Assembly (NCBI RefSeq): GCF_022842145.1
Contig: NZ_JALHQD010000010.1
Coordinates: forward strand, 83,943 to 147,942
Direction of reading: 5' to 3'
DNA from: Tabrizicola sp.
Lineage (GTDB): Bacteria; Pseudomonadota; Alphaproteobacteria; Rhodobacterales; Rhodobacteraceae
Length of the DNA: 64,000 bases
Positions 2,513 to 36,455 of this stretch are shown here, one piece after another. The stretch's first letter is position 1; each line of letters begins with the position of its first letter. A program made the position numbers and the translations under genes. Under the pieces are notes generated by a model. The model worked only from the letters and a program-made list of their open reading frames with translations. It did not search any database and was not told the DNA's origin.

Positions 2513-4372
2513 TCAGACCGGCCCATCATCAAACGAAGCATGATTGGCCTTGAAGAGCCTTGCGTAGATGCCGCCTTGGGCGATCAGTTCCGAATGGCTA
2601 CCCTGTTCAACGATCCGCCCCGCGCTGAGGATCAGGATCCGGTCCGCGTTCCGCACCGTGGCCAGACGGTGCGCGATGATCAGGCCGGTCCGGCCCCGCA
2701 GCAGGATTGCCAACGCGGTCTGGATCTGCTTTTCGGTCTGGCTGTCGATGCTGGAGGTCGCCTCGTCCAGCACAAGGATTGGCGCATCGGCGACCAGCGC
2801 GCGGGCGAAGCTGATCAGCTGGCGCTGGCCCATCGAGAGGTTCGCGCCGCGTTCGTTCAGTTCCGTTTGGTAGCCATCGGGCAGGCGCTGGATCAGGTCA
2901 TGCGCGCCAACGGTGCGGGCGGCCTGCATCACATCGGAGTCGGTGGCGGTAATCTTGTTGTAGCGGATATTCTCCATCACGTTGCCGGTGAAAAGGAACG
3001 GTTCCTGCAAGACCATCGCGATCTGCGCACCAAGTGAGCTTTGGGAAAGCTGGCGTACGTCATGCCCACCGACCAGAACCACCCCTTCCGAGACATCATA
3101 GAAGCGGTGGATCAGCGACATGATGCTGGATTTGCCTGACCCGGTCGGACCGACAAGGGCCACCGTCTCACCGGGAGCGACGGTGAAATTGACGCCGCGC
3201 AGGACCGGCTGGCCAGGGACGTAGGAAAACTGCACATCGCGGAATTCAACGGCTGCGGGCATGCCGGGCGGCAAGTCAACCGCATCGGGCGCGTCCTTGA
3301 TGCCGACGGGCACGTCCAGCACCTCGGTCAGGCGCTGGCCCGAGGCCATGGCGCGCTGCATGACGGAATACTGCATGGTGAGGGAGCGGACCGGATCAAA
3401 GAAGCGCTGGATGAAGAACAGGAAGGCGACCATCACGCCCACGTCCATGCTGCGGTTCAGCACCATCTGGCCGCCGATGACGACCACAACCGCCATCGCA
3501 AGGCCGGTCAACGCATCGACGATAGGCACAAGCACTTGGGCGTAGCGTGCCGCGACCAGATGGGTGCGCAGGTTGGCGGTGGCCTTGTCCTCGAACAGTT
3601 GCATGTTGACGGTCTGGCGGGTCATGCCTTGCACCGTCCGCACGCCGTGGATGCCTTCGGCCAAGGCCCCGGCCGTGACCGAGTTCGTGTCATGTGCCGC
3701 GATGAAGGCGGCGCGGGCGCGCGGCAGCCAGACGATGCGAACCAGAAAGAGGACAGGCAGGATCGACAGCGTCAAAAGGCCCAGTTGCCAGTCCAGCCAC
3801 AGCATGCAGCCGACAATGCCGAACAAAAGCACCAGATCGCCTACCGAAATGACCGAAGTTTCCAGAAACTCTTGCATCGAGTTCACGTCACCTTGCAGGC
3901 GTGACATCAGGCGGCCGACCTCGGTCTTGTCCATGAAGCTTTGCGATACGCGCTGCAGGTGGGCGAACATCGCCTCACGAATGTCGAAGAGAACGTTCTC
4001 GGCGACGCGGCCGACCATCCTTTCCTGAACAAAGCTGGACAGGAAGTTGACAAGGATCGCCACGGCAAAGGCCAGCACGGACCAGATAAGGGCGCTGCGC
4101 CCATCGGGGGCCAGCAAGCCTTCGTCAATCGCGGTGCGGATGATGATCGGGATCGACAGTTGCGACAGCGTGAAGACCAGGACCGAGATGACCGAAATCA
4201 CCAGTTCCCGCCGGTAGGGGCGCACGAAAACCCAGATGCGGCGCATGACATTCGTGTCGAAGACGCGGCCGAACATCTCTTCCTTGATGCGGTGCGATCC
4301 GACGACAGCACGCGGCGGGCGGCGGCCGTCTTCCCGCACCTCGTTGCGCTCCATCTCGGTCTCGCCGCTCAT
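2513..4372 (-). CDS. ABC exporter half-transporter (consensus Walker B, degenerate signature)
   Basis: This 619-residue membrane-domain plus ATPase fusion has the usual length of type IV (MsbA/Mdl-like) exporters. Residues about 40-330 hold six predicted membrane segments and the rest is the nucleotide-binding domain. Visible motifs are Walker A GPTGSGKSS, Walker B with catalytic Glu in LVLDEATSS, and switch His in IIAHRL. The ABC signature reads LSMGQRQ instead of LSGGQ, with Met at residue 514 (codon 2831-2833). The ATG overlaps the stop of the upstream exporter gene by 4 bases, so the two are translationally coupled and almost certainly form a heterodimer. It is the last gene of the long leftward train. 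The substrate is unknown; it could export a drug, a lipid or an intermediate of the adjoining catabolic pathway. Confidence 0.88.
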   Translation of the reverse strand: MSGETEMERNEVREDGRRPPRAVVGSHRIKEEMFGRVFDTNVMRRIWVFVRPYRRELVISVISVLVFTLSQLSIPIIIRTAIDEGLLAPDGRSALIWSVLAFAVAILVNFLSSFVQERMVGRVAENVLFDIREAMFAHLQRVSQSFMDKTEVGRLMSRLQGDVNSMQEFLETSVISVGDLVLLFGIVGCMLWLDWQLGLLTLSILPVLFLVRIVWLPRARAAFIAAHDTNSVTAGALAEGIHGVRTVQGMTRQTVNMQLFEDKATANLRTHLVAARYAQVLVPIVDALTGLAMAVVVVIGGQMVLNRSMDVGVMVAFLFFIQRFFDPVRSLTMQYSVMQRAMASGQRLTEVLDVPVGIKDAPDAVDLPPGMPAAVEFRDVQFSYVPGQPVLRGVNFTVAPGETVALVGPTGSGKSSIMSLIHRFYDVSEGVVLVGGHDVRQLSQSSLGAQIAMVLQEPFLFTGNVMENIRYNKITATDSDVMQAARTVGAHDLIQRLPDGYQTELNERGANLSMGQRQLISFARALVADAPILVLDEATSSIDSQTEKQIQTALAILLRGRTGLIIAHRLATVRNADRILILSAGRIVEQGSHSELIAQGGIYARLFKANHASFDDGPV

Positions 4373-6222
4373 GGCCGATCTCCGAAGGATTGGTGCTGCA
4401 GGTCATAAAGCGCGCGGTAGCGGCCATTCAGCGCGAGAAGCTCGGCATGGGTCCCCTGTTCGGCGATGGTGCCGCAGTCCAGCACAAGGATGCGGTCGGC
4501 ATGCATGAGCGTGTTCAGACGATGCGCGATCAGGATGGTCACGCGACTTGCGGCCTTGGCGCGGATGGCGGCGAAAATGCGCTCTTCGGTGCGGGCATCG
4601 ATGGCTGCGGTGCTGTCGTCAAAGATCAGCACGGCGGGGTCGAGGATCAGGCTGCGCGCGATCGACATGCGCTGGCGTTGCCCGCCCGACAGCGAGGCGC
4701 CACGCTCTCCCACAACCGTGCTATAGCGTTCTGGCAGAGCGTTGATGTAGTCGTGCAGCTGTGCATCGCTGCTGGAGGTTTCGATCCCGGCCTCGGGTGC
4801 CCATGGGTCGCCATAGGCGATGTTGTTTTCCATCGTGGTGGTGAACATGAACACGTCTTGCGTCACCACCGCGACCGCCTTGCGCACCGAGGGCAACGTA
4901 ACTTCGCGGATGTCCTGGCCGTCAAGGGTGATGGACCCGCCGGTCACATCGTAGAACCGCGGGATCAACTGGGCGACGGTGGTTTTGCCACTGCCCTGTT
5001 CGCCGATGATCCCGATCACCTCACCCCGCTGGGCGGTGAAGGAAATGTCACGCAGCACCAGGTGATCGGGGGCCGAGGGGTAGGCAAAGCTGACGCGGTC
5101 AAGCCGCAGGGTGCCTTCGGTCAGGGTCAGAGCTTGGGCATCGGGGGCGGTCGACACGGCTGGCTGCAGGTCCAGAAGTGCAAAGATGCGCGCGCCGCAG
5201 GTTGAGGTGCGAGCGACCGAGTTGACCAGCATCCCCAGCTGGCGGACGGGCATCTGCAGGATCATCATGAAGGTCAGGAAGGCAGTCAGGGTGCCCACGG
5301 TCATGTTGCCCGCCTGCACCTTGAAGCCCCCGACCAGCAGGACCAGCCCCATCGCGACAAAAAACGACAACGTCATCGCCGAGGTGCTGCGCACCCGCAG
5401 CTCCACCCGCTCATGCGCGAGGTCCAGCGCCCGTTCCGAAGCGGAGCGGAACTTGGCCAGTTCATGGTCTTGCGCGGAGAAGGCCCGCACGACTCGGATG
5501 CCAGCAAGGTTCTCTTCCATCACGCGGGTCAGGACGGACAGGCGTTCTTGCAGGTCAAGCCAGGTCTGGCGCAGCTCCAGCTGTGAGGTCGAGGACCGCC
5601 AGCCGACATAGGGCACGAAGCTGAGCGCCAAAAGCCCGAGCACCGGGTCGATGGCAATCAGCCACCAGCCGCCGAAGCCGATCAGAACAACCAGCAGCAA
5701 CAGGCGCACCACCCCAGTGGCGAAGAACATCCGCGCGCCTTCAAGGTCAAGGAGGCCAAGGGTGATCAGGTCGCCGGAATGCATCCGGTCATGGAAGCCG
5801 AAGCTGAGGTGCTGGATCTTGTCGTAATAGGCCAACCGCAGCCGCAGGCCAGTATGGTGGCCAACCGCCTCGCTGAAGTAGTTCTGAAAGGTAGCAAACA
5901 GGCCGCGCAGGGTTGACACCGTCAGGACCAGCAGCGACGTGACCAGAAGCGCGCGGGTTGCGACCTCGTCACCGCCTGTCGCCACGACCTGGGTCTGGTC
6001 CACCGCGCGGCCCAGAAGCTGCGGGATGATCAGTTGCAGCACGGCCGCGAACAGAGTGGAGACCAGCGCGAAGGCCATCTGCCAGGGCGTTTCCATCCCG
6101 ATGCGCAGGACGCGCCACATCGTGCGCAATCCCTTCGACGGGCTGACGGTATCGGTCAGGCCAAGCACCTCGACCGGGCGCGAGGCCGGGTGCGCGGTGT
6201 GCTGCGCCTTGGCTTCAGGCAT
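4369..6222 (-). CDS. ABC exporter half-transporter (degenerate Walker B, consensus signature)
   Basis: This 617-residue exporter has six membrane segments and a C-terminal ATPase domain. Walker A is GEQGSGKTT and the signature is the standard LSGGQRQ. After Walker B the catalytic Glu is replaced by Asp (LIFDDSTAA, residues 535-536, codons 4615-4620). With its partner's LSMGQ signature this makes one degenerate and one consensus ATP site, the arrangement known from heterodimeric exporters such as TM287/288, BmrCD and LmrCD. I chose the ATG at 6220-6222 (MPEAKAQ) because the frame upstream is only an overlap with the SDR gene. The start overlaps the SDR stop by 8 bases. A longer start at 6411 is possible but unlikely. 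Confidence 0.87.
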   Translation of the reverse strand: MPEAKAQHTAHPASRPVEVLGLTDTVSPSKGLRTMWRVLRIGMETPWQMAFALVSTLFAAVLQLIIPQLLGRAVDQTQVVATGGDEVATRALLVTSLLVLTVSTLRGLFATFQNYFSEAVGHHTGLRLRLAYYDKIQHLSFGFHDRMHSGDLITLGLLDLEGARMFFATGVVRLLLLVVLIGFGGWWLIAIDPVLGLLALSFVPYVGWRSSTSQLELRQTWLDLQERLSVLTRVMEENLAGIRVVRAFSAQDHELAKFRSASERALDLAHERVELRVRSTSAMTLSFFVAMGLVLLVGGFKVQAGNMTVGTLTAFLTFMMILQMPVRQLGMLVNSVARTSTCGARIFALLDLQPAVSTAPDAQALTLTEGTLRLDRVSFAYPSAPDHLVLRDISFTAQRGEVIGIIGEQGSGKTTVAQLIPRFYDVTGGSITLDGQDIREVTLPSVRKAVAVVTQDVFMFTTTMENNIAYGDPWAPEAGIETSSSDAQLHDYINALPERYSTVVGERGASLSGGQRQRMSIARSLILDPAVLIFDDSTAAIDARTEERIFAAIRAKAASRVTILIAHRLNTLMHADRILVLDCGTIAEQGTHAELLALNGRYRALYDLQHQSFGDRP

Positions 6223-6964
6223 GGCCACCGTCCACAGACAGCACCTGACCGGTGATCCAGCTGGCGTCCGGCCCGGCCAAAAAGGCCACGGCGCCTGCAA
6301 TGTCTTCAGGCTGACCCAGCCTGCGGGTGTGGGTGCCGGCAAGGATGGCTGCCTGCCCGTCAGGGCCGTAGCTGTCCCATTGGGCGCGGCTGGCAGGGTT
6401 GGACAGGACAAAGCCGGGGGCGACGGAATTCACGGTGATGCCGAACGGGCCCAGTTCCAGCGCCAGTTGGCGGGTCAGGCCGACGAGCGCGTGTTTGGCG
6501 GCGGCATAGGCCTGGATGCCGGTCAGACTGGCGCGCAGGCCCGCGCCCGAACTGATGGTGACCAGACGCCCCTGCCCCGCCACTTTCATCGCCGGGCCGA
6601 AGGCCTGGGCCAGATGGAACGCGCTGTCGACGTTGGCGGCGAAGATCGCCTGCCAGTCGTCTTCGGGCACGTCTTCGACCGGGCGGCGGACCTGGTCCCG
6701 CACGCCACCTGCCGCACTGACCACGATAAGGGGCGGGGCGTCCGCCAGCCGGTCGGCCAGCGCACGGACATCGGCGATATGGCCAAGGTCGGCAGCTATT
6801 CCCGGCAAGCCAAGCACTGCGCAGGCGGCATCGAAGGCGGTGCCAGGCAGGTCGGTTACCGTGACGCGCGCGCCCTGATCGGCCAAGCGTCGGGCGATGG
6901 CCGCGCCGATGCCGCCGACCACGCCCGTCACCAGGGCGGGCGTCCCGTCAAGGGTCAGGCCCAT
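6215..6964 (-). CDS. SDR-family NAD(P)-dependent oxidoreductase
   Basis: A 249-residue classical short-chain dehydrogenase/reductase. The N-terminal cofactor motif TGVVGGIG fits TGxxxGIG. The catalytic Ser lies in ISSGAGL and the YxxxK pair is YAAAK. The C-terminus ends with the typical SVDGG. It probably oxidises a hydroxyl or reduces a ketone of a pathway intermediate with NAD(P)(H) in the cytosol. The ATG at 6962-6964 is preferred because it places the Rossmann motif at the usual distance from the N-terminus; it overlaps the creatininase-family gene by 10 bases. An upstream in-frame start exists but would run 78 bases into that gene. The substrate is not deducible. Confidence 0.88.
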   Translation of the reverse strand: MGLTLDGTPALVTGVVGGIGAAIARRLADQGARVTVTDLPGTAFDAACAVLGLPGIAADLGHIADVRALADRLADAPPLIVVSAAGGVRDQVRRPVEDVPEDDWQAIFAANVDSAFHLAQAFGPAMKVAGQGRLVTISSGAGLRASLTGIQAYAAAKHALVGLTRQLALELGPFGITVNSVAPGFVLSNPASRAQWDSYGPDGQAAILAGTHTRRLGQPEDIAGAVAFLAGPDASWITGQVLSVDGGHA

Positions 6965-7653
6965 GGCCCCTCCAGCGCGGCGCGGGTTTCTTCCACCCCG
7001 ATATGCCAGAGGGCATCCGTCACCGAGTCCGGCTTTTGCCAAGCCCCGCCAAAGTTGCCGTCGCCCAGCATGGCGCGGGCAGCGGCGGGCGGGCTGGCGC
7101 GCAGCAGGTCAAAATCGGCCATCGGCTTGTCGCCCGCCGGGGCCGGAGCATGTGGAAGCCGGGTCCAGGGGAAGTTTTCCATCCAGCTGGCATGACTGCC
7201 GCCGCCGTTTTCCTGCACGAAGGCCCAGGTCCGCGGCGCGCGCCACCAGTTGTGGAACTTGATCGAGGTGTCACCCCAATCCGCCATCAGCTCTTGCGCC
7301 AGAGCGTCGACAGGTGCGTTGCCGCCGTGGCCGTTCACGATCAGGATCTGGCGAAACCCTGCCCGGCGGATCGAGGCGAGGGTATCGCGCATCACCGCCA
7401 GAAGGGTTTCCACCCGCAGCGTCACCGTACCTGGGTAGGCGACGAAGTAGGGCGCAAGGCCAAATGGCATCACTGGCCAGACTGGGACGCCCAGGGGTTC
7501 AGCCGCATCGAGCGCCACCTTTTCGGCCAGGATCATGTCAACACACAGAGACAGCTGCGCATGCTGTTCGACTGACCCGATGGGCAGCACCGCCCGCGGA
7601 GCACGCTGGGCTGCGGCCGCCACATCGGCCCAGTTCATTTCAGCAAGTTTCAT
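6955..7653 (-). CDS. Creatininase-family amidohydrolase
   Basis: A 232-residue protein of the creatinine amidohydrolase family, metal-dependent enzymes that open cyclic amides such as creatinine or act on related formamides. Visible are the N-terminal metal motif IGSVEQHAQLSLCVD (Glu29, His31, Asp39), YPGT in the middle, NGHGGN, and a late SHASWMEN segment matching the family's His/Glu-rich loop. The usual motif has one more residue between His and Asp (EQHGPHLPLxTD), so this metal loop is one residue short. It is coupled by 4-base overlap to the M14 peptidase gene upstream. True creatinine activity is unproven; the family also includes mycofactocin and riboflavin-related members. The locus favours a ring-opening amidase role. 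Confidence 0.85.
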   Translation of the reverse strand: MKLAEMNWADVAAAAQRAPRAVLPIGSVEQHAQLSLCVDMILAEKVALDAAEPLGVPVWPVMPFGLAPYFVAYPGTVTLRVETLLAVMRDTLASIRRAGFRQILIVNGHGGNAPVDALAQELMADWGDTSIKFHNWWRAPRTWAFVQENGGGSHASWMENFPWTRLPHAPAPAGDKPMADFDLLRASPPAAARAMLGDGNFGGAWQKPDSVTDALWHIGVEETRAALEGPWA

Positions 7654-9299
7654 AACATCGTCTCAAACCGGTGGGTGCCGCCCTTTTCAGAGCGGGCGGT
7701 GACAGTGACGCGTCCGGTTCCGCGCACCAACCATTCGACCTTGCGGGCCACGGGCGCCCATTGCTGTCCCCAGTTGGAGTATTCATAGTTGCGTTCGTTG
7801 CGGCCCGCCAGATGGCCCAGATCGGCAGTCGTCGGGTTCATCACCACCTCGGCCCCTTCGATGGTCACGGTCACCGGGCGGGCAACCTTGTTCTTGACGG
7901 CGACGTCCGAAAGGTTCGTGGGCAGATAGCCGTGGTTGGCGACGATGGCGGTCACTTTGTGGAGGTCGCCGCCCAGCGGTGTCACCGTAACGCTGTCGAC
8001 CTGCACGCGGGGTGCGGCTGCGGCGTGGCGCAGGTTGAACAGTGTGTTGTCGTGGCAGACCTTTTCCAACAGCTTTCCGGGCGGGTTGCGATAGCTCCAG
8101 ATATAGACCATTCCACCGACCTCGACCGGCCCAAGCTGCGGGTGGTCGAAGGCTTGCCAGTCGCGGAAGCCGTGGTCGCCGACATTGGCGAGGACCCAGT
8201 TGAAAAGCTTGCGCTGCACGTCCGCATCCCGGGGGCGTAGGTTGTAGTAGCCCTTCTTCTCGACCCCGGCGGCGATCTCGATGTCCCATAGCTCGGTCGA
8301 AAAGCAGATGATGCCCATCTCTTCATAGACCCAGTCCTTGAGCGAGCCGTGGCGGACCTTGGACTTGTCGGGCGTGAAGTCCTCATAGGTGGAGATCACG
8401 GGATAGCCGGTCAGCCGGGTGCCGACCTCGCCCAAGGCCTTGTAAAGACCCAGGTCGCGCGGGCTCATTTCGGCATCCATCGCCATCATCGAAGGGCGCA
8501 GGATGATGCCGCCGTGGGTGTGATAGGCGCACATGCCGCAGATGTTGGGATGGTCCAGGATCAGCCGCGCCATGCCCATCGTCTCGGGTTCCGAGAGCGG
8601 GTATTCGCCCGCGCCGTATTCCTGCGGCGACCAGTTGATCGGGAAGTTGCGGTTCATGTTGCCGTCGGCCTGCGGCAGGATCTTCACGTCGGCGCCGTTG
8701 TAGTCGGGGATCAGGCCCTCAGGGTAGATGCGGTAGTATTCGCCACCCTCTTCGCCCGGTTCGCGCTGGATCATCAGGCGCGGCTCGGCGGGGTCTTTAT
8801 TCCATTCGCCCTTGGGGTCGGGGACGCGCATGTTGACGATGTAGCCGTCGCCGTCGATGTCCTGCGCTTGCAGCCCTTCAAGCCGGTCCTCGCCGGGCAG
8901 GCAGCGCCCGTTGCCGCACCAGGGGTGATAGGGCGCCTTCAGCGCGTATTCCGCCCCATCGGGATTGATGCGGGGGATGATGTAGAAGACCTGACCATCG
9001 ACCAGCCGCGTGACCTCAGGGTCAGTGCCGTAGCGGGTGAGAAGGTAGTGGATCGCATAAAGCGCGGTGGCAGAAGTCGCGTGTTCCTCGGCATGGATCT
9101 GGGCATCGATGTAGAAGCCCGGCTTCTCCAAAGCGGGGCCGGTCTCGGGGTTGGTAATCTGCATGAACCACACGTCGCGCCCGCGATGGGTTCGGCCGAT
9201 AGAGGTCAGCGTTGCCAAGTGCGGATAGGCGGCTGCCAGCGCCTGCAGATGCCCAGTCATCGCGTCATAGTCGTGGTAGGTGTCGAACCGGATGTCCAT
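7650..9299 (-). CDS. Zinc carboxypeptidase-like M14 family peptidase
   Basis: A 549-residue M14 protein without a signal peptide, so probably cytosolic. Zinc ligands are seen as HAEE (His69, Glu72) and a late His in YHTHGG (260/262). The substrate carboxylate-binding MNRNF (Asn216-Arg217) and a candidate catalytic Glu336 in FSTELW are also present. The catalytic domain fills roughly residues 1-390 and a beta-rich C-terminal domain follows. The family removes C-terminal residues or cleaves amide side chains. The start codon shares one base with the M20 stop and the stop overlaps the creatininase-family start by 4 bases. In context it probably trims or deamidates an imported peptide-like compound. 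Confidence 0.87.
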   Translation of the reverse strand: MDIRFDTYHDYDAMTGHLQALAAAYPHLATLTSIGRTHRGRDVWFMQITNPETGPALEKPGFYIDAQIHAEEHATSATALYAIHYLLTRYGTDPEVTRLVDGQVFYIIPRINPDGAEYALKAPYHPWCGNGRCLPGEDRLEGLQAQDIDGDGYIVNMRVPDPKGEWNKDPAEPRLMIQREPGEEGGEYYRIYPEGLIPDYNGADVKILPQADGNMNRNFPINWSPQEYGAGEYPLSEPETMGMARLILDHPNICGMCAYHTHGGIILRPSMMAMDAEMSPRDLGLYKALGEVGTRLTGYPVISTYEDFTPDKSKVRHGSLKDWVYEEMGIICFSTELWDIEIAAGVEKKGYYNLRPRDADVQRKLFNWVLANVGDHGFRDWQAFDHPQLGPVEVGGMVYIWSYRNPPGKLLEKVCHDNTLFNLRHAAAAPRVQVDSVTVTPLGGDLHKVTAIVANHGYLPTNLSDVAVKNKVARPVTVTIEGAEVVMNPTTADLGHLAGRNERNYEYSNWGQQWAPVARKVEWLVRGTGRVTVTARSEKGGTHRFETML

Positions 9300-10672
9300 T
9301 ACAGGGTCTCTCCACTGCGGCCGAAGTGTTCCATGATCGCGGCGGCATACTTGATGCCCTTGATATACTTGTCGATGTGGATGTTCTCATCCGGCGCATG
9401 CAGGTTGGCACCGGGGTTTGCAAAGCCGGTCAGCACGCAAGGAATCCAGACATGGCGCAGGATTGCGCCTTCGGCGGAGACTCCGTTGACGATGGGCAAT
9501 TCGCCATAGACCTCAGTCGCGGCGGCGATGATGGCCTGGCTGATGTCTTCCTTGACGCTGATCTTGTAGGGCGGTTCGGCCCCGTCGAAGGCCTTGACTT
9601 CGATATGGCCGAAACCATGCTTGACGAGATGCGCCTTAAGGCGGCGGATCGCGGCGTCGGGCTGGATATTGGGGATCAGGCGGAAATCAAGGCGGGCGCG
9701 CGCCTCGTTCGGGACGATGGTCTTGGTGCCGGGGCCGGTATAGCCCGCGATCAGGCCCTGTATGTTGGCGGTGGGTTCATAGCTGCGGGCGCGCAGAGCG
9801 TCGATGCCGTCGCGGCCCATTGCGAATTGATCAATGCCCCATTCTTCTTTCATCGCCGCCAGATCGACGCGTCCCGCCTTGTCGGCCAGTTGCGCCTCAT
9901 CATCGGGGCCAAGTTGCCAGAGGCCTTCGTACCAATCGTCGATCAGGATGCGGCGGTTTTCGTCCATGATGCTGTTCAGCGCACGGATCAGGTCCCAGAC
10001 TGGAGCAGGTACCAGCGGGAAGTTGAGCGAGTGGATGTCCTTGTTGGCCCCCCGCGCGATCAGTTCGACGAAAAGCACGGACTTCAGGCCCAGCGATACG
10101 TCCGGCACTTCGGTACCCGTCTCGATAGAGCCATCAAGGCAGTGCATCCCGTCAGCAGCCAAGAGATCCTTGTTCTGCTCGGCCCAGGCGGCAAGATTGG
10201 GCGAGCCGATCTCTTCCTCGCCCTCGATCAGGAATTTAAGGTTGGCGGGCACTTCCCCGCGCACCTGCATGAACGCCTTCGCGGCCTTGGTGAAGGCCAA
10301 GACGCCGGACTTGTTGTCGGTGGCGCCGCGCCCGTAAAGGACCCCGTCCACCACCGCGCCTGACCAGGGGCCGCCATGCGTCCAGGCGTCGATCGGCTCG
10401 GGCGGCTGCACGTCGTAGTGGGCGTAGCACAGGATGGTCTTGGCTTTCGTCTTCGCCTCCAGATGGCCAAAGACCACGGGTGGGCCCTCCGCCAGTTCGT
10501 GGAAATCGGCGGGCAGGCCGTCACGGCGCATCATGTCGCGGATCAGTGTGGCGCCTTCGCGCAGGCCGACGTTCTGGGCGCTGATCGAAGGTTGCTGCAC
10601 GAAGGTTTGCAGATCACGGATGCATTCATCGGCGTTCGCGTCGATCCAGTCGTAGATGGCTTGCATGGTCAT
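9299..10672 (-). CDS. M20-family metallopeptidase / dipeptidase
   Basis: A 457-residue M20/M25/M40-type dipeptidase or deacylase with a two-metal site. Seen are the first metal motif YAHYDVQP, the bridging Asp in RGATDNKSG, and the catalytic and metal Glu residues in EGEEEIGS. A lid or dimerisation domain follows at about 200-320. There is no signal sequence, so it is cytosolic. Such enzymes cleave dipeptides or N-acyl amino acids. The ATG overlaps the SDR stop (ATGA), and the TAA shares a base with the M14 ATG. Together with M14, M24 and M32 members it gives this locus a strong amide-bond-hydrolysing signature. Confidence 0.9.
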   Translation of the reverse strand: MTMQAIYDWIDANADECIRDLQTFVQQPSISAQNVGLREGATLIRDMMRRDGLPADFHELAEGPPVVFGHLEAKTKAKTILCYAHYDVQPPEPIDAWTHGGPWSGAVVDGVLYGRGATDNKSGVLAFTKAAKAFMQVRGEVPANLKFLIEGEEEIGSPNLAAWAEQNKDLLAADGMHCLDGSIETGTEVPDVSLGLKSVLFVELIARGANKDIHSLNFPLVPAPVWDLIRALNSIMDENRRILIDDWYEGLWQLGPDDEAQLADKAGRVDLAAMKEEWGIDQFAMGRDGIDALRARSYEPTANIQGLIAGYTGPGTKTIVPNEARARLDFRLIPNIQPDAAIRRLKAHLVKHGFGHIEVKAFDGAEPPYKISVKEDISQAIIAAATEVYGELPIVNGVSAEGAILRHVWIPCVLTGFANPGANLHAPDENIHIDKYIKGIKYAAAIMEHFGRSGETL

Positions 10673-14418: not shown

Positions 14419-14429
14419 GCAGAGTCGCG

Positions 14430-25210: not shown

Positions 25211-25221
25211 TAAATTGTATG

Positions 25222-25231: not shown

Positions 25232-25321
25232 TCGACAAAGAAACTATCGTATGAGTCGAACGGGATTGTCAAGGCGACTTTGGCCGACGCCCCGCCACCT
25301 GAACGACCGGCCGGGGGTGCC

Positions 25322-27060: not shown

Positions 27061-27062
27061 CC

Positions 27063-28139: not shown

Positions 28140-29284
28140 CCCCCCTGCCCGCCTCATTTCACGCGATGCTGAGGGATCGGCTGCGAGCACGGGCTTCAGC
28201 CGCAGGGCTGGATGGGCTCTTGCTCTTGGCTCCGGGCAACGTGGCCTATGCTTCGGGTTGGCTGTTCTCGGTGAACGAACGGCCGATGGGCCTGTGGGTG
28301 CCCGTTGAGGGCGAGGCGATATTGTTCGTGCCACATCTGGAGTTGGAGAACGCCCTTGGCGTCGCGGGCGTGCAAGTCAGCACCTATGAGGAATTTCCCG
28401 GCCTCATCCCCCCTGCCCTGTGGATGATCGCTCAGACGGGCGCGCGCCGTCTGGCGGTAGATGCGCTGGACGCAAGGTATCTTTCGGCAGCGCAGGGCAT
28501 GGTGGCGAGGCTTGACCTGACCGACCATTGCCTGCCCGAACGCACCATCAAGCACGCGCCCGAACTCGCATTGATCCGCGAGGCCGCGCGGTTTGCCGAT
28601 TTGGTGCTGGAGCGTCTGCTGGCGCAAGCAGGCGATATGATTGCCCAAGGCGCGACCGAACTGGACCTGATGGCAGATTGCACGGGCCATGCCCGCCGGG
28701 CTTTGTCGGCAACGCACGGTCAGACCTTTGCGGGTACCAAGATGGGCATTACCGCGTCAGTCCACTCCGGGCCTCGGGGGGCTTTGCCGCATGGCACGGT
28801 GCTGGCGCGCGTGCCGCAGAAGGGCGAGCCAATCATCGCGGGCATCGGGTGCAGCCTTGGCGGCTATCACGCCGAAAGCGGCGTCACGCTTGTGTATGGC
28901 GACCCGACAGCGGACCAGCGCCGCGTGATGCAGGCGATGGCAGATGCAAACGCCGCCACCATCCAGGCCCTTGCCCAGCGCCAGACCTGCACGAGCGTCA
29001 ACGACGCCGCCCTTGCGCCGATCCGCGCGGCGGGGTTCGGGGACACGATCCGCCACCGGATCGGCCACGGGATGGGTGTCGAGGGGCACGAAGCCCCGTG
29101 GCTCTCGCCCGGCGACGACACTCCCACAGGCCCCGGCATGGTCTTTTCCTGCGAGCCAGGCATCTACCGCCCCGGCCATGATGGCTGGCGCTGCATCGAG
29201 ACGCTGATCGTGACCGATACCGGCGTCGAGACGCCAAGCCGATTTCAATCCACCCATCCCTTCGACGCCCGCGTCATATCATAG
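28136..29284 (+). CDS. M24-family (creatinase/prolidase-fold) hydrolase with altered metal site
   Basis: A 382-residue pita-bread-fold protein: an N-terminal creatinase-like domain (1-150), then the M24 domain. Of the five usual metal ligands, His311 (IGHGMG), Glu340 (SCEPGIY) and Glu355 (CIETLIV) are kept. The first Asp is replaced by Gly236 and the second by Glu247 (GIGCSLGGYHAESGV). This recalls metal-independent members such as creatinase rather than aminopeptidase P. It may hydrolyse a guanidino, amidino or cyclic-amidine bond instead of a peptide; ectoine hydrolase DoeA is another relative. The GTG start overlaps the LDH2 stop by 4 bases. Confidence 0.85.
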   Translation: MTPLPASFHAMLRDRLRARASAAGLDGLLLLAPGNVAYASGWLFSVNERPMGLWVPVEGEAILFVPHLELENALGVAGVQVSTYEEFPGLIPPALWMIAQTGARRLAVDALDARYLSAAQGMVARLDLTDHCLPERTIKHAPELALIREAARFADLVLERLLAQAGDMIAQGATELDLMADCTGHARRALSATHGQTFAGTKMGITASVHSGPRGALPHGTVLARVPQKGEPIIAGIGCSLGGYHAESGVTLVYGDPTADQRRVMQAMADANAATIQALAQRQTCTSVNDAALAPIRAAGFGDTIRHRIGHGMGVEGHEAPWLSPGDDTPTGPGMVFSCEPGIYRPGHDGWRCIETLIVTDTGVETPSRFQSTHPFDARVIS

Positions 29285-29293
29285 GAGCCGCCG

Positions 29294-30514
29294 ATGCCCG
29301 AACCCGCCGCCTGGCGCTATCAGAAGATCACGAAGCCGATGTTCGATCTGGCTGCCCCGCACACGATCCTTGCGGGCCGGGTGATCCCCATTGTGGGCGA
29401 CATCATCGAGGATGGCTTTGTCGAGATGAAGGACGGCAAGATCGCCGCCATCGGCCCCCGCGTCCAGATGCCCGCAGGCCCGGTGATCGAGACGGGCGGC
29501 ACGTTGATGCCCGGCATGATCAACAGCCACGCGCACCTGAACTGGGACGGTATCCATGATCTGGCGCGCCAGTCGATGGACGACCCCAAGCCGATTTCCG
29601 CCTTCAAGGCGGCGGGCAACATGCTGAAATCCTTGCGTGCAGGGATCACGATGGTCCGCGACCTCGGGTTCCACGATATGAACCTCTATTCCAAGCAGGC
29701 GGTGGCACAGGGCATCTTTCCCGGCCCACGTCTGAAGGTCTGCGGCGCGGCGATCATCCAGACCGGCGGGCATACCTACTGGGTCTGCCGCGAAGCCTCC
29801 GGCCCAGACGAGATGCGCCGTGCGGTGCGCGAGCAGGTCAAAGGCGGGGCCGACCTCATCAAAATCATGGCCTGCCACGACACGCTGGAATTCACCGACG
29901 AAGAACTTGCCGCCGTGATCGACGAGGCGCACCGCAACCGCCTGCCGGTGACGGCGCACGCCACCTACGACGCCTGCATCCGCCGCGTGGCGGAGTTCGG
30001 GGTTGACTGCATCGAGCATGGCGGCTCGATGTCGGACGAGACGATCCAGGTCCTGCTGGACCGCAAGCTGCCCGTCGTGACCACCTTCGCTCCCCTTGTG
30101 CAGCAAAGCCAGCCCGAAATCGCCCGCCGCTTCGGTATCCCCGAATGGAAGATCGAAGAGCGGATCAAGGCGGTCGCCGACCCCAGCCGATACGCAGGCC
30201 TGAAGAAGGCCGCAGAACGTGGCGTGCCCATTGTCTTCGGCACTGATGCGGGCAGCCCTGCTGTAGAGCATGACGTGATCGCGCCGGAACTGGCGCATAT
30301 GGTCAAGGTCGGCGTCTGCCGCGACAACATGGACGCCCTAGCCTCCATCACCATCCGGGCGGCCAAGGTGTCCGCCATGGACCACCTGATCGGCTCGCTT
30401 GAGGTCGGCAAGGCCGCCGACGTGATCGTGGTTGACGGCAACCCCGACCAAGACCTTTTCGCTCTGGAGCGCATCAAGATGACCTTTATCGACGGCAAGA
30501 GGATGCACGGATGA
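29294..30514 (+). CDS. Amidohydrolase-superfamily metal-dependent hydrolase
   Basis: A 406-residue amidohydrolase with binuclear-site features: His79 and His81 (SHAH), a probable carboxylated Lys in LIKIMAC, His in TAHATYD and IEHGG, and Asp in GTDAGSP. The flanking beta-sandwich has the typical GTLMPGMI and AADVIVVDGNP segments. It resembles the imidazolonepropionase / Xaa-Pro or Xaa-Arg dipeptidase branch. It probably hydrolyses an amide or cyclic amide in the cytosol. A good ribosome site (AGGAG) lies 9 bases after the M24 stop. Confidence 0.88.
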   Translation: MPEPAAWRYQKITKPMFDLAAPHTILAGRVIPIVGDIIEDGFVEMKDGKIAAIGPRVQMPAGPVIETGGTLMPGMINSHAHLNWDGIHDLARQSMDDPKPISAFKAAGNMLKSLRAGITMVRDLGFHDMNLYSKQAVAQGIFPGPRLKVCGAAIIQTGGHTYWVCREASGPDEMRRAVREQVKGGADLIKIMACHDTLEFTDEELAAVIDEAHRNRLPVTAHATYDACIRRVAEFGVDCIEHGGSMSDETIQVLLDRKLPVVTTFAPLVQQSQPEIARRFGIPEWKIEERIKAVADPSRYAGLKKAAERGVPIVFGTDAGSPAVEHDVIAPELAHMVKVGVCRDNMDALASITIRAAKVSAMDHLIGSLEVGKAADVIVVDGNPDQDLFALERIKMTFIDGKRMHG

Positions 30515-31689
30515 GCCAATTCGCCAAGCACATCGCACCCCGGATCGTGGAAGAGGATGGGTCATTCCGCACCAAGATGCTGGGCATCGCGGCCAGCCGA
30601 AGCGACGTGATCGCCCTTGGCCGTGGCGATCCGGATTTCCACACACCTACACATATCGTGGAAGCGGCCAAGGCGGCACTTGACGCAAATGCGCATCACT
30701 ACACCGGGCCGACCGGCCTGCCACAGCTGCGCGCGGCCATCTCGGCTGACCTCAGGGTCAGCTATGGATTGGACTACACCGCGGATGAGATCGTGGTTAC
30801 GGCCGGGGTGCAGGAGAGCATCATGCTGTGCATGTTGGCACTCTGCGCCCCAGGCGAGGAGGTGCTGATCACCTCGCCCCGCTTCACCACCTATGACACC
30901 GCCGTACACCTGTGCGGCGGGGTGCCGGTTCCGGTGCCCACCCATGAGAAGGACGACTTCGCCCTGGACGTGGCCGAGATCGAGGCGCGCATCACGCCGC
31001 GCACGCGGATGTTCGTGCTTGTGTCGCCCAACAACCCTACGGGGGCCGTGACGCCGCCCGACGTGATCCGCAAGATCGCCGACCTGGCGGTCAAACACGA
31101 CATCCTGATCATCGCGGACGAGATCTACGCCAAGATGATCTACGCGCCGAACGAGCATCTCAGCATCGCCACCCTACCCGGCATGAAAGAACGCACGATC
31201 ACGCTGAACGGGTTTTCCAAGACATACGCAATGACGGGCTGGCGCGTGGGCTACCTCGCCGCGCCTCTGGACTTCGTGGAAAAGGTGACCGAACCACGCC
31301 ACACGCTCTCAATCAACACCTGCACCGTCAGCCAGCATGCAGCCCTTGCCGCGCTGACCGGCCCGCAGGAACCGCTCCAGGCGATGCTTGCCGATTATGC
31401 TGCGCGACGGGACTGGCTAATGCCCGCCCTGACCGCCGCCGGGTTCACCTACGGCCATCCTGGCGGGGCGTTCTACATCTACACGAACATCTCCTCCACC
31501 GGGATGCCAGCGCCGGAGTTCTGCGAGCGGTTGCTCCGGGAAACGGGGGTGATGCTGTTCCCAGGCACGATGTTCGGCGACGACAGCACCGACTACATCC
31601 GCATCAGCTATCTACAGCCCCTGCCGATGATCCAGGAGGCGATGCGCCGCATCACAGCCTTCGCGCAAAGCGTGCGGGTCGCGGCATGA
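30511..31689 (+). CDS. Class I/II pyridoxal-phosphate aminotransferase
   Basis: A 392-residue aminotransferase, paralogous to that at 22451-23632. It has LGRGDPD at about 37, SPNNPTGAV, ADEIYAKM and the PLP lysine 237 in NGFSKTYAMTGWR. The near-colinear alignment with its paralogue suggests related substrates, perhaps the two enantiomers or two successive amino acids released from the imported compound. It overlaps the preceding and following genes by 4 bases each. Confidence 0.9.
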   Translation: MSQFAKHIAPRIVEEDGSFRTKMLGIAASRSDVIALGRGDPDFHTPTHIVEAAKAALDANAHHYTGPTGLPQLRAAISADLRVSYGLDYTADEIVVTAGVQESIMLCMLALCAPGEEVLITSPRFTTYDTAVHLCGGVPVPVPTHEKDDFALDVAEIEARITPRTRMFVLVSPNNPTGAVTPPDVIRKIADLAVKHDILIIADEIYAKMIYAPNEHLSIATLPGMKERTITLNGFSKTYAMTGWRVGYLAAPLDFVEKVTEPRHTLSINTCTVSQHAALAALTGPQEPLQAMLADYAARRDWLMPALTAAGFTYGHPGGAFYIYTNISSTGMPAPEFCERLLRETGVMLFPGTMFGDDSTDYIRISYLQPLPMIQEAMRRITAFAQSVRVAA

Positions 31690-33107
31690 GCGCTGACCCC
31701 GCCAAAAAGTTCGTCGGTTGCCAGATCAGCCCGATCAGCTTTGTCGACGAGGGCGTGGAAAGCGTTCTTGATACGTTACAGACCCGCGCGGGCGTCAATG
31801 TGCTGATGTTGGGTACGGTGTCATGGCTTGGGCTGAAATCCGGGCGTTCCATCAGCCATGTGCTGGACGGCTGGCCGGATCATGGCGTGCCGGAGCCCTA
31901 CCAGATGCGGGGTGGCGCCTACTTCGACCCGGACCCGCGCTACTACCGTGACACCTTCATGGCCGACTACCGGTCACGCGACCCCGAATTCGAAGGCAAG
32001 GACATCCTCAAGATGGTCATCCCCGCCGCTCATGCGCGGGGGATGAAGGTCTATGTCGAACTGATGGAGCCGTTCTTCAAATATGCCGGCCACGGCTCGG
32101 CGGCTGCGGTCGACATTCCGACCCTGCCGCAAGCGATGGAGGTAGACATCTTCGGCCGCCTTGGGGGCGAGCCATCAACATCGCACCCCGGCTATCGCGG
32201 CTGGATCCATTCGATGATCGAAGATCAGGTGCGCAACCACGACATTGACGGGTTCATGTGGTGCAACGAGCGTAACTCTCCCCTCGACACGCTGATCCAG
32301 GGCGGCTGTCCCGGCGACTTTTCCGCCCCCTCGCGGCGCGAGGCCGAAGAACGTGGCGTAAACGCCGAAAGCTGCCGCCAGGCGCTGCTGCGACTGTACG
32401 ACTTTTGCCAAGAAGCGGCCGCGGGCAAGACTTTTGTCGACGGATCGCTCGTCACCTTCCTGCGGGTTCTGATGGACAATCCCGAAGCATTGGTGTGGGA
32501 GAAGTTCTGGTTAGAGCGGAACAAGGACCTCGACCGCGAGCTTTACGGTTTGGTCAAATGGTGCAAGCCGCAACTGCCTTTTGGCCTTAACGTCTGGAAC
32601 CGCAATCATTTCAACCTGATCCGCCGTGCGCAATGGCCCTGGGCCGAACAGACCCGCTACGCCGACTTCGTCAAGCCGATCACCTATCAGCATCAGGCAG
32701 GTGAAGTCTGGGCCAAGGAATTGTCGTTCTTTCGCAAGACCATCCTGCGCGACTTCACCGGAGATGAGGCGACGCGTGGCCTGTTCCGCATCCTTGGCCT
32801 GAACGAAGCCCCGTTCGACCAACTCGTTGGCGCGGGTATGGACCCCGACACCTACGTGTTCGGTCAGTGCCAGGATGCGGTGCGGGGCGTTGACGGCAAG
32901 GCCAGCGTCTACATGGGCATCGGCGTCGACGCCCCGCGTTCCCGCCCCGATACCGCCAAAATGACGCGCGACATCGCCTACCGGTCGGTCCATGCAACCT
33001 ATCGGGCGGGCGGTCACGGCGTGGTGCTCGCGCCGAACTACACGTCGATGCGGCTGGATCATCTGGACGGGGTGGGCGAGGCGCTCGGCGAACTGGGGCT
33101 GAAATGA
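31686..33107 (+). CDS. Unrecognised protein, possible glycoside-hydrolase-like TIM barrel
   Basis: A 473-residue cytosolic protein (no signal peptide) that I cannot assign to a named family. The order of segments suggests a (beta/alpha)8 barrel: VNVLMLGTVSWLGL, AHARGMKVYVELMEPFF, DIDGFMWCNERNSPL, LPFGLNVWNRNHFN, DFVKPITYQHQAGEVW and HGVVLAPNYTSM. NER and nearby Asp/Glu residues at strand ends are reminiscent of retaining glycosidase-like or GHL families. Trp, Tyr and His are plentiful. It is translationally coupled to the aminotransferase and to the dihydroorotase-like gene. If it is a glycosidase, the imported compound could be a glycoconjugate, which would also explain the epimerase and Gfo/Idh genes. 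Confidence 0.55.
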   Translation: MSADPAKKFVGCQISPISFVDEGVESVLDTLQTRAGVNVLMLGTVSWLGLKSGRSISHVLDGWPDHGVPEPYQMRGGAYFDPDPRYYRDTFMADYRSRDPEFEGKDILKMVIPAAHARGMKVYVELMEPFFKYAGHGSAAAVDIPTLPQAMEVDIFGRLGGEPSTSHPGYRGWIHSMIEDQVRNHDIDGFMWCNERNSPLDTLIQGGCPGDFSAPSRREAEERGVNAESCRQALLRLYDFCQEAAAGKTFVDGSLVTFLRVLMDNPEALVWEKFWLERNKDLDRELYGLVKWCKPQLPFGLNVWNRNHFNLIRRAQWPWAEQTRYADFVKPITYQHQAGEVWAKELSFFRKTILRDFTGDEATRGLFRILGLNEAPFDQLVGAGMDPDTYVFGQCQDAVRGVDGKASVYMGIGVDAPRSRPDTAKMTRDIAYRSVHATYRAGGHGVVLAPNYTSMRLDHLDGVGEALGELGLK

Positions 33108-34483
33108 GCTTCGACACACTGATACACGGGGGCATGCTGATGACCCCGGACGGCTTTCGGCCCGGGCAACTTGGGCTGTCGGCAGGTCGGATCGCGGCCA
33201 TTCTGGCGCCGGGCGACACGGCTGAGGCCGGCCAGGTGATTGACGCGACCGGGCTACAAGTCCTGCCCGGATTGATCGACATACACTGTCATATCCGCTC
33301 GCCCGCCTACCCCAACCGCGGTTCGGTCGAAAGTGAGACGGCGGCTTGTGCAGCCGGCGGGATCACCAGCGTGTTCGAGATGCCGATCACCGATCCCTGC
33401 TGCAACACGCCCGATCAGGTCGCGATGCGGCGCGCGCATTTCGCCCCGCGCGCACATGTCGATTTTGGCCTTTATGCCGCCCCGCTGACACTGACCGAGG
33501 CCGCAGTGGACGCGCTGGCGGACACCGGGATCATCGGCTTCAAGATCTTCACGACCCCTTCGCCAGAGGGCAGAGAACGGGAGTTCGCGGGCCTCGCCTG
33601 GCCCGACCCAGCGGACCAACTGCAGGCGCTGCGGCTGATCGCGCGCACCGGGCTTCCGGTCGTCGTGCACGCCGAGAATGCCGATCTTCTGGCCCGTGCG
33701 GCGCATGACGTGGAGGGCGACGATCCCGCGGACGCGCGCATTCACAACCGCGCCCGCCCACCAATGGCTGAAGCGGTGGCAGTGGCGATGCTTCTGACGA
33801 TGAACATGGAAGCCCAGGCGCGGCTGCACATCGCGCACGTCACCTCGGCCGCGACCGTTGAGGTGCTGCGTCGCTTCGCCGGCACCAGCGACTTCACCGC
33901 CGAAACCTGCCCGCACTACTTGCTGTTTACCGAAACCGACGTCGCCCGCGTTGGAGTGGCCGCCAAGATCAACCCGCCGATCCGGCACGCGGCGGACCGC
34001 GCGGCGCTTTGGCAGGCAATTGCAGATGGCGTTCTGGCGCATGTGACGACAGATCACGCGGCCTTTGCGCCAGCTGAAAAGGCCGCCCATACGGGCAATT
34101 TCCTGACCGCACCGCCCGGCCACCCCGGGCTTGAAACCATGCTGCCCGCCATGCTGGATGCCGTTCATGCAGGCAAGATCAGCCTGCAGCGGGCGGTATC
34201 GGTTCTTTCGACCAACGCTGCGGCACGCTTCGGCCTTCCCGACCGAGGCAGGCTTTCCAAGGGCTGCAAGGCAGATGTCGTTCTTGTTGATCTGGCAGCA
34301 AAGACGCAGATTACCAAAACCACTCTGCTGACCGCCGCCCGCAACCTTGCAGCGCTTACTGAGGGAGCGGTGTTTCACGGTGCCCTGCGTCGCACCCTCT
34401 TGGCTGGCGAAACCATCTGGCACGACGGCCTGACCGGCACAGCTGGCCAAGGCCGCTTCATAACTCCGAAAGGGCTGGCATGA
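33104..34483 (+). CDS. Dihydroorotase/allantoinase/hydantoinase-family amidohydrolase
   Basis: A 459-residue cyclic-amide hydrolase. Metal ligands are His61 and His63 (DIHCHIR), the carboxylated Lys147 (IGFKIFTT), His in VVHAEN and IAHVTS, and Asp in VTTDHAAF. The end of the domain has the usual [16 protein letters not shown]. The family opens hydantoins, allantoin, dihydropyrimidines and dihydroorotate. It is a second, unrelated ring-opening enzyme besides the PuuE-type protein. Which ring it opens is not readable; pyrimidine biosynthesis is unlikely given the operon. Confidence 0.9.
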
Positions 34484-35496
34484 CCGATCCTGTACAACCG
34501 CTGCTGGAGGTTCGTGACCTACAAACCACTTTCCGTCTGGGGGGCACGTCGCGCATCAGGGCTGTTGATGGCGTAAGCTTTTCGGTGGCCCCGGGCGAGA
34601 CCTTGGCCATCGTCGGGGAAAGCGGCTCTGGCAAGTCCGTCACCAGCCTGTCGATCATGCGCCTTCTGACCAAGGGCGTGGGCGAGATCACGCGCGGCGA
34701 GATCCTGCTGCGTGGCCGTGATCTGACCAAGCTGTCAGAACGCGAGATGCGCGCCGTGCGTGGCAAGGAAATCGGCATGATTTTCCAAGAGCCGATGACC
34801 AGCCTGAACCCAGTGCATACGCTTGGTGCCCAGATCTCGGAAGTCGTCATGCGCCATGAGGGGTTGTCGACCGCCAAGGCCCATGCCCGCGCCATCGACA
34901 TGCTGGCCCTTGTCGGGATTCCGGAACCGAAGAAACGCGCGGACAATTACCCGCATCAGATGTCGGGCGGCATGCGTCAGCGCGCGATGATCGCCATGGC
35001 CTTGGCCTGCCAGCCCCGGCTGTTGATCGCCGATGAGCCGACAACCGCGCTCGACGTGACGATCCAGGCACAAATTCTTGAGCTGATGAAGGATCTGCAG
35101 GCGCAGCTTGGAATGGCGATCATCTTCATCACGCATGATCTTGGAGTAGTTGCGGAAATGGCTGACCGGGTGGTGGTGATGTACGCAAGCCAGGTTGTGG
35201 AATCCGCATCCGTCGTAGACATTTTTGAACGCCCGCGCATGCCCTACACCGCGGGCCTTCTGAAATCGATCCCGCGGCTGGGGTCAGCTGGCCAACATCG
35301 TCGGCTGGACACCATTCCCGGCCAGGTGCCAATGCTGGCGCGCCTGCCATCGGGCTGCCGGTTTCGCCCGCGCTGCGCCTATGCGGTGCCCGCCTGCGCG
35401 CTGACCGAGCCCAGCTTGACCCGGGATACATCGGGCCGCGAGGTGCGATGCCTGCGGGCCGACGAACTGACACTCTCCGAAGGAATTCCGGCATGA
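34480..35496 (+). CDS. Peptide-type ABC transporter ATPase, Opp/DppD type
   Basis: A 338-residue ATPase with Walker [12 protein letters not shown], signature [11 protein letters not shown], Walker [13 protein letters not shown] and switch region [12 protein letters not shown]. The C-terminal oligopeptide-transporter extension ([15 protein letters not shown]) carries Cys residues that bind an iron-sulfur cluster in DppD homologues. It works with the DppF-type ATPase and the permeases at 12438-14345. It is placed 20 kb from them on the opposite arm. Confidence 0.93.
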
Positions 35497-36455
35497 CCGC
35501 GCTTCTTGCCGTCAAGAATCTTAAGAAATACTTCCCCATAAAGGGTGGCGTGCTGAATCGCGTGGTCAACAACGTGAAGGCCGTCGATGGCATCAGCTTT
35601 GACGTGATGAAGGGTGAGGTCGTGGGTCTGGTCGGCGAAAGCGGGTCAGGCAAGACCACCGTCGGGCGCACCTTGCTTCGGCTGGAGGAGGCAACCGATG
35701 GGGCGGTGCTGTTCGACGGCACCGACATCATGGAGATCGGCAAGGACGAAATGCGCGCCTATCGCAAGCGAATGCAGATCATCTTCCAGGACCCCTATGC
35801 CAGTCTGAACCCCCGCGAAAAGATCCGGACGGTGATCGGCCATGCGTTGGCCCTTCACAAGATCGGAACGTCCGCCGACCGCGAGGACCGCATCGTTGGC
35901 CTGCTGGAGCAGGTGGGCCTTTCGGCGGATTATCTTGACCGCTTTCCGCATGAATTCTCAGGCGGGCAACGACAACGGATCGGGATTGCGCGGGCTTTGG
36001 CCGTCAACCCCGACTTCGTGGTTGCCGATGAGCCGGTCTCGGCGCTTGACGTGTCCATTCAGGCGCAGGTCATAAATCTGCTGGACGACCTGCGATCCGA
36101 ATTCAACCTGACAATGCTGTTCATTGCCCATGACCTGGCCGTGGTGGAACATATCTGCGACCGAGTGATCGTGATGTATCTTGGGCGCATCATGGAAATT
36201 GCGCCGGCCACGGCCTTGTACAACAGCCCGGCGCATCCCTACACAAGGGCACTGTTGTCGGCGGTTCCAATCCCCAGACCAGGACACAAACGCAACCGGG
36301 TGCTTCTGACCGGCGACATCCCCAGCCCAATAAACCCTCCGTCAGGCTGTGTTTTTCGCACGCGCTGCCCCCAAGCGGTTGCAGAGTGCGCAATGGTCGT
36401 CCCCGATCTGAGGGAAGTTGCACCAGGACAGTTCAGCGCCTGCATCATGAACTGA
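35493..36455 (+). CDS. Peptide-type ABC transporter ATPase, Opp/DppF type
   Basis: A 320-residue ATPase starting at ATG 35493 (ATGA overlap with the DppD-type gene). Seen are [13 protein letters not shown] typical of the F subunit, Walker [12 protein letters not shown], signature [11 protein letters not shown], Walker [13 protein letters not shown] and the C-terminal [15 protein letters not shown] extension. It is the last gene of the rightward train and completes the importer. Confidence 0.94.

Follow-up and report, generated by a model that had tools for sequence, protein, structure and literature searches.

A 31-gene divergent locus of Tabrizicola sp., probably a catabolic regulon for an amide-linked compound, recurs in several phyla

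We analyzed a 64,000-nucleotide stretch of Tabrizicola sp. DNA (NZ_JALHQD010000010.1, positions 83,943 to 147,942), hereafter the window, and focused on a locus of 31 genes at window positions 2513-36455. The results indicate that the locus is probably one catabolic regulon, whose substrate would be an amide-linked compound that probably bears a sugar and has a core like a cyclic amidine or ureide, and that this regulon seems to move horizontally. The original prediction, made from the letters of the window, had proposed a single system for import and stepwise breakdown. That proposal is now well supported by a gene neighbourhood kept across phyla, an importer split between the two arms of the locus, and an operator-like site common to both arms. 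The prediction did not include the protein P0001 with its glycoside hydrolase (GH)-like fold, the pair of DUF4438 proteins, the altered M24 site or the operator-like palindrome.

Gene organization, recurrence and the operator-like site

All 31 open reading frames (ORFs) were present as originally described, 21 leftward and 10 rightward, diverging from a 169-bp gap (25153-25321). With the likeliest starts, the within-arm junctions (n = 29) ranged from -25 to +12 bases, with the 84-base gap at 14346-14429 as the sole exception; in 28 of the 29 the genes overlapped or stood no more than 12 bases apart, and 18 were 4-base overlaps. For three genes the start was set downstream of that of the longest ORF (ABC exporter half 2, 6222; AstE-like, 21961; DppF, 35493), and the 25-base overlap between the GntR and DHDPS-family genes may get smaller with an alternative GntR start. 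The locus encodes a Dpp/Opp family-5 importer, consisting of an SBP_bac_5 binding protein (14430-15980, minus strand; PF00496, 212 bits; closest solved chains YliB and AppA), two BPD_transp_1 permeases (DppB, 13371-14345; DppC, 12438-13358; both minus strand) and two ATPases with oligo_HPY (DppD, 34480-35496; DppF, 35493-36455; both plus strand). Because the binding protein and permeases lie on the left arm and both ATPases on the right, one importer needs both arms.

To find other holders, we searched genome contigs with a profile built from P0001 (31686-33107, plus strand) and five relatives. This search returned 197 P0001 relatives, and the best 80, with up to 10 kb fetched on each side, formed the locus set. 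The divergent M32/DUF4438a start was kept in 23 of the 80 loci; these gaps were used in place of a 41-locus count of both arms, which was rejected since aminotransferases 1 and 2 cross-match at 46%, a cross-match that also inflates the count of 37 for aminotransferase 1. A compact version, with only the importer, P0001, amidohydrolase, aminotransferase and Gfo2 seen within the fetched stretch, occurred mainly in Gemmatimonadota and in gammaproteobacterial metagenome-assembled genomes (MAGs), and a Chloroflexota version had a different gene order. When 12 genomes behind the loci were searched for the M20 gene, a close orthologue (69-88% identity) was found in five, each near the locus, and the one in G390 carried an in-frame stop.

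We then compared 59-80 kb around the locus in these five genomes, which are the most complete cases because they were picked for holding the M20 gene. At ≥45% identity over ≥70% of the protein, 29 of the 31 genes recurred in Pseudorhodobacter (G385), 27 in Palleronia (G389), 26 in G390, 22 in G392 and 15 in a Chloroflexota genome (G393), where matches to the cluster had 31-69% identity. Under the same cut-offs, a control set of 21 genes from window positions 36.9-64 kb gave no match in G385, G389, G390 and G393 and one in G392; at ≥30% identity, 4 of the 21 were matched in G392 and none in the other four.

The unit is accessory. Among 385 genomes sampled from the class, 4 carried P0001, and among 394 from the family, 11 did, the window's own genome being included in both counts; DUF4438 was found in 1 of the 385 class genomes, the window's own, and the single other genome of the same genus in the family sample had no P0001. 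In the P0001 tree, the window fell in a well supported 15-row group that mixes Alphaproteobacteria, Gemmatimonadota and Acidobacteriota and excludes Palleronia and its kin, which suggests horizontal transfer, with the limit that many rows are MAGs, whose bins can be wrong. A heavy-metal P-type ATPase gene flanks the cluster in the window (36855-39221; E1-E2 ATPase, HMBD and YHS domains). Its best Pseudorhodobacter match lay on contig C23 and the cluster on C26; therefore, the cluster is not tied to that neighbour. Plasmid records held no close homologue: none for DUF4438a, two distant ones for P0001, and 339 records for the amidohydrolase, all below 60%. By record titles, the holders include some lake and sea MAGs; other holders belong to genera usually found in soil and on plants. 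One MAG carried the same part of the cluster on two contigs (L016, L017), with P0001 88% identical to that of the window in both, reflecting duplication or mixed strains.

The palindrome TTGTCGACAAT (25222-25232, no strand), within the divergent gap, occurred once in the 4.33-Mb genome of the window, and a reversed control 11-mer did not occur. Its 8-base core, TGTCGACA, was present in 16 of the 23 M32/DUF4438a gaps of relatives (15 of 22 distinct gaps), against a mean of 0.05 and a maximum of 1 in mononucleotide shuffles, a comparison that does not amount to a probability because the gap sequences are related. Over all 80 loci (1.32 Mb), the core occurred 48 times: 28 times in non-coding gaps within 250 bases of a cluster-gene start, 10 times inside genes matching the window set and 10 times elsewhere. 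Four split loci kept the core with their pieces: L042, L043 and L044 have it ahead of DppB/DppD and ahead of GntR, and L039 has it ahead of M32/M14 and DUF4438a. Two Chloroflexota loci also carry it, L080 ahead of GntR and L082 in the gap between DUF4438a and GntR. The perfect 11-mer was present in 4 of 5 genomes scanned. Pseudorhodobacter had three sites, one of which precedes a second binding-protein gene adjoining the cluster. An ORF resembling RidA enamine deaminase by eye (L143 886-1365, G385) lies beside a second operator copy, next to the cluster. Extra 11-mers at G385 C1:95590 and G386 C4:1570319 fell inside ORFs that by eye resemble a pyridoxal-phosphate enzyme and a histidine kinase, and were set aside as probably chance.

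The likely ligand of the palindrome is the GntR/FCD regulator encoded on the left arm (17958-18677, minus strand; both domains matched), whose D152, H156, H200 and H222, which we take to be the FCD metal ligands, were shared by all 8 distinct homologues. Scans for promoters and terminators gave results at shuffle level; one notable promoter-scan site, TTGACA-18-GATAGT, lay in the divergent gap. Scans with Rfam (gathering threshold) and for tRNAs gave no match.

Enzymes encoded by the two arms

Searches against Pfam and NCBIfam upheld the family calls of the original prediction, namely an importer, many hydrolases, two aminotransferases, an aldolase-family protein and a two-gene ABC exporter; the oxidoreductase-type proteins, earlier put at four or five, numbered six (SDR1, SDR2, extended SDR, Gfo1, Gfo2 and Ldh_2). 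From the gap, the left arm (minus strand) begins with an M32 metallocarboxypeptidase (23632-25152; 551 bits), class I aminotransferase 1 (22451-23635), a VOC protein resembling methylmalonyl-CoA epimerase (21963-22439; H13, H86 and both Glu of GIEIEF conserved in 32 matches) and an AstE/AspA (DoeB-like) deacylase (20975-21961). These are followed by a paralogue of the PuuE allantoinase family (20049-20978), a divergent member of the ureidoglycolate-lyase (AllA) family (19552-20052), a DHDPS-family aldolase/hydro-lyase (18653-19555; K169 kept in 3 of 3 homologues), the GntR/FCD gene, an extended SDR of the NAD-dependent epimerase type (17053-17961) and Gfo/Idh/MocA dehydrogenase 2 (Gfo2, 15980-17056). 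Beyond Gfo2 come the binding protein, DppB and DppC, Gfo1, which is levoglucosan dehydrogenase/DgpA-like (11373-12434), SDR oxidoreductase 2 (10669-11376), an M20 peptidase/amidase (9299-10672), an M14 carboxypeptidase-like protein by Pfam (7650-9299), a creatininase-family hydrolase (6955-7653; PF02633, 139 bits; a 64% relative in Chloroflexota L074), SDR oxidoreductase 1 (6215-6964) and the ABC exporter halves 2 (4369-6222) and 1 (2513-4372; ABC_membrane and ABC_tran). The exporter also adjoins the cluster in G385 and G389, and half 1 is found within L042.

The right arm (plus strand) starts with DUF4438 a (TM1086 family; 25322-26188) and DUF4438 b (26185-27060; 37.5% identical to a). An Ldh_2-family dehydrogenase of 2-hydroxyacid/ureidoglycolate type (27057-28139), the M24-fold protein (28136-29284), an amidohydrolase of the Xaa-Pro/Arg carboxypeptidase-ochratoxinase group (29294-30514) and class I aminotransferase 2 (30511-31689) follow, and then P0001, a cyclic amidohydrolase of the AllB/dihydroorotase group (33104-34483), DppD and DppF.

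In the M24 protein and in all 28 of its distinct homologues (31 matches), Gly236 and Glu247 stand where two Asp would bind metal, a loss visible in comparison with a solved prolidase, and the further ligand position E355 varies among distinct homologues (Glu 7, Asp 10, Asn 11). Its scores, 116 bits with prolidases against 49.6 bits with creatinase and 38 bits with DoeA, place the protein nearer to prolidases; a reading as an ordinary prolidase was rejected on the missing ligands. Creatinase and ectoine hydrolase (DoeA) are metal-free members of the M24 family. The metal ligands were kept in the AllB-like, amidohydrolase and M32 proteins, the M32 HEXXH motif being retained in the window protein and in 26 of 26 distinct homologues. 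The closest solved relatives of the amidohydrolase include arginine carboxypeptidase. DUF4438 a and b and their homologues have invariant Trp, Asp, Arg and Cys positions in common; DUF4438 did not appear in the accessible parts of the literature searched, where the TM1086 matches concerned crystallisation or, by title, unrelated topics. The best NCBIfam match of both aminotransferases was GntC, a cyclodehydratase, below the cut-off, and cyclitol-type Gfo and creatininase/IolN relatives were also among the NCBIfam matches.

P0001 (473 aa) had no Pfam or NCBIfam match, its best PDB sequence match had an E value of 0.18, and inspection by eye revealed no N-terminal signal. A structure model based on a 62-sequence alignment reached a predicted local distance difference test score (pLDDT) of 94, compared with 35 for a single-sequence model. 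Foldseek matches were submitted to a second comparison, in which the best match was Cwp19 (Z 26.1, root-mean-square deviation 3.1 over 310 residues, 16% identity), followed by PgaB (Z 25.3), a fucosidase (Z 24.5) and GH42 and GH164 enzymes (Z about 22). According to the accessible text of its description, Cwp19 is a lytic transglycosylase (PMC6016235). Residue E195, after strand 4, was invariant in the 62 sequences. By its model, P0001 is a GH-like TIM barrel, a fold that alone does not establish activity. The earlier suggestion that the substrate is possibly glycosylated gains support from this predicted fold and from the two sugar-type Gfo/Idh dehydrogenases.

Distant P0001 relatives had varied neighbours, namely glycosidases and SusC/D (L012), hydroxyproline-type genes (L011), malate synthase (L089) and 2-hydroxyacid dehydrogenase (L091), and for this reason the family may serve several glycosylated substrates. 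In Granulicella pACIX901 (L011 3381-18579), GH127, hydroxyproline-type catabolic genes, an M1 peptidase, aminopeptidase P and a P0001 relative share one island, which looks like a locus for hydroxyproline-rich glycoproteins. A Parabacteroides distasonis plasmid (L012 6917-17370) carries a TonB receptor, SusD, two tandem P0001 relatives, glycerate kinase and an SLC13 permease.

Taken as families, the enzymes point to three chemistries. One is amide hydrolysis, the second would open a ring of cyclic amidine or ureide type, and the third would oxidise or hydrolyse a part resembling a sugar or polyol.

Elsewhere in the window, the 84-base gap (14346-14429, minus strand) between the binding-protein and permease genes contains the strong, GC-rich stem for which it had been called a hairpin gap; the gap as a whole folds just modestly better than shuffles (z -1.68; 14 of 200 shuffles equally good). 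A 288-bp tandem repeat (1-1251; 4.3 copies, 95% matches), three of whose units each contain an ORF of 80 aa, is perhaps part of a repeat protein running off the window. On the other side of the cluster, positions 39300-63982 hold a LacI-type regulator, several solute-binding proteins and a GH2-family gene.

Known pathways and alternative explanations

With allantoin and ureide catabolism, the cluster shares members of four enzyme families (AllB, PuuE, AllA and AllD). All four, however, scored under the curated cut-offs (AllB-like, 287.6 vs 357.85 bits; PuuE-like, 352.4 vs 424.6 bits; AllA-like, 72 vs 160 bits with the best ureidoglycolate lyase model), and the peptidase, GH-like and Gfo genes are foreign to that pathway. 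The AllA-like protein reached 68.3 bits in Pfam, compared with 176.9 for the other copy in the genome, and its E68, R69, H70, Q75, W121 and H122 were invariant in 5 of 5 distinct relatives. Canonical PuuE and AllA genes lie elsewhere in the genome (C3:125-128 kb), so that the cluster copies are paralogues, and a reading of the locus as the genome's allantoin pathway was rejected. The ureide substrate proposed originally is supported only in part. Polysaccharide-deacetylase counts across 13 genomes were of little help.

Ectoine degradation (DoeA, DoeB and an aminotransferase) likewise clusters an M24 fold lacking metal ligands with an AstE/DoeB-type deacylase and aminotransferases, but the scores were 45 bits against a cut-off of 613 for DoeA and 102.5 against 402.7 for DoeB, and the cluster importer is of Dpp rather than Ehu type. 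Creatinine-creatine degradation shares the creatininase-family protein and the M24 fold without metal ligands; it differs in that the creatininase reached 69.7 bits against an equivalog cut-off of 235 and the M24 protein is nearer to prolidases. Gfo1 matches the dehydrogenases of 3-keto-glycoside pathways (levoglucosan dehydrogenase, DgpA), yet with 132 bits it is far under the levoglucosan dehydrogenase cut-off of 650. The partner lyase of 3-keto-glycoside dehydrogenases has an AP_endonuc_2-type domain, and none was matched among the 31 proteins. GntR/FCD-controlled Dpp/Opp catabolic operons have the same architecture of regulator, importer and operator but differ from the cluster in its 31-gene size and enzyme combination. 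Searches for the gene combination gave no description of this cluster in the accessible parts of the literature, and within that literature the regulon is undescribed, its parts being mostly known families.

Several observations weigh against one regulon for one compound. Seven of the 23 divergent gaps lack the 8-base core, five of these (Aureimonas, Rhizobiaceae) having TGTATACA, and in compact Gemmatimonadota-type loci, as in most Chloroflexota loci, the search gave no core closer than 250 bases to a cluster gene. The creatininase gene was present in none of the five larger regions and, at ≥45%, in 1 of the 80 loci, most of which are too short to reach there. Gene content is variable; therefore, one linear pathway using all 31 genes is not established. 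In Anaerolineae-type loci, P0001 is 36-38% identical and many neighbours 50-74%; the same was seen in Chloroflexota loci L074, L076, L077, L079, L080 and L082-L086, as if P0001 had been replaced or were evolving faster. Furthermore, the peptidase families need not share one compound, and the M24 protein could be a non-catalytic subunit.

Among more specific substrates, we hold weakly to peptide-bound arginine glycation adducts (hydroimidazolones and carboxyalkyl arginines). Peptidases would release the adducts, creatininase- and hydantoinase-like enzymes would open the creatinine-like ring, the M24 protein would cut the guanidine as creatinase does, and the sugar dehydrogenases and DHDPS-family enzyme would take the sugar-derived side chains. 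The hydroimidazolone ring resembles creatinine, and the adducts are analogous to creatinine and creatine. This guess was made because the creatininase-family gene, the M24 protein without two metal ligands, the hydantoinase relatives, the amidohydrolase with its arginine carboxypeptidase relative, and the peptide-type importer with M14, M20 and M32 peptidase genes would fit it. However, the creatininase is missing from the larger regions, the M24 protein is closer to prolidases than to creatinase or DoeA, GH-like P0001 is unexplained, and the accessible literature gave nothing on such a cluster.

It is slightly less probable, and on balance unlikely, that the locus is a loose collection of a general peptide-uptake operon and unrelated co-travelling enzymes. 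Variable gene content and broad-specificity families (DppABCDF, M20, M14, M32) would suit such a collection, but its recurrence across phyla with a common operator-like site and gene overlaps would not, and neither the metal-free M24 protein nor the GH-like one is an enzyme for peptides in general.

Other substrates are conceivable and explain fewer genes than the arginine adducts. Breakdown of glycosylated peptides (muropeptides or hydroxyproline-rich glycopeptides) appears improbable: P0001 resembles a lytic transglycosylase, and its Granulicella relative sits with GH127, proline-racemase-family, DHDPS and aminopeptidase P genes, but that relative is just 31% identical, no amino-sugar or hydroxyproline catabolic set was found among the 31 proteins, and the M24 protein lacks two prolidase metal ligands. 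A little less probable still are mycosporine-like amino acids, from which amino acids would be taken off an imine-linked cyclohexenone ring and sugar removed by the GH-like enzyme, the ring being opened after Gfo oxidation. The cyclitol-type Gfo with the creatininase/IolN relatives, the GH-like protein and the lake and sea MAGs among the holders agree with this, whereas AllB, PuuE, AllA, M14 and M32 are left unexplained and no such cluster was found in the accessible literature. Least probable is biosynthesis and export of a peptide-derived natural product, to which the exporter kept beside the cluster in G385 and G389 and the sub-threshold GntC matches might point, but importer genes accompany most versions and no synthetase, ligase or precursor family was matched among the 31 proteins; on these two grounds the direction is most likely catabolic.

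Proposed mechanism and significance

For the favoured catabolic regulon, we propose that both arms are controlled by the GntR/FCD regulator, which would bind TTGTCGACAAT within the gap of 169 bp and probably be released by a carboxylate intermediate. The family-5 binding protein with DppBC and DppDF would import the amide-linked small molecule. In the cytosol, the GH-like barrel, the two Gfo/Idh dehydrogenases and the SDRs would work on the sugar- or polyol-like part, and the amidohydrolase with the M20, M14 and M32 peptidases would release amino acids. The AllB-, PuuE-, AllA-, creatininase- and AstE-like proteins, together with the metal-free M24 protein, may open and strip the cyclic amidine- or ureide-like core, after which the aminotransferases, Ldh_2 dehydrogenase and DHDPS-family lyase would feed carbon into central metabolism. 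The ABC exporter may expel a toxic intermediate.

More tentatively, the locus may be a complete undescribed pathway that Alphaproteobacteria, Gemmatimonadota and Acidobacteriota share by horizontal transfer and that has a related form in Chloroflexota. Such a pathway would mineralise a class of dissolved organic nitrogen that is widespread yet overlooked, such as arginine peptides that are glycated and ring-modified, by means of a new glycosidase family, a metal-free hydrolase of prolidase fold and a paired DUF4438 enzyme.

A regulon recurring in several phyla, both in lake and sea MAGs and in genera typical of soil and plants, implies a common environmental substrate. Its proteins include families for which our searches found no function, DUF4438 and the P0001 family, and the binding protein and single-site operator are direct handles for identifying the compound. 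Its identification could name a turnover route for a now-uncharacterised part of dissolved organic nitrogen.

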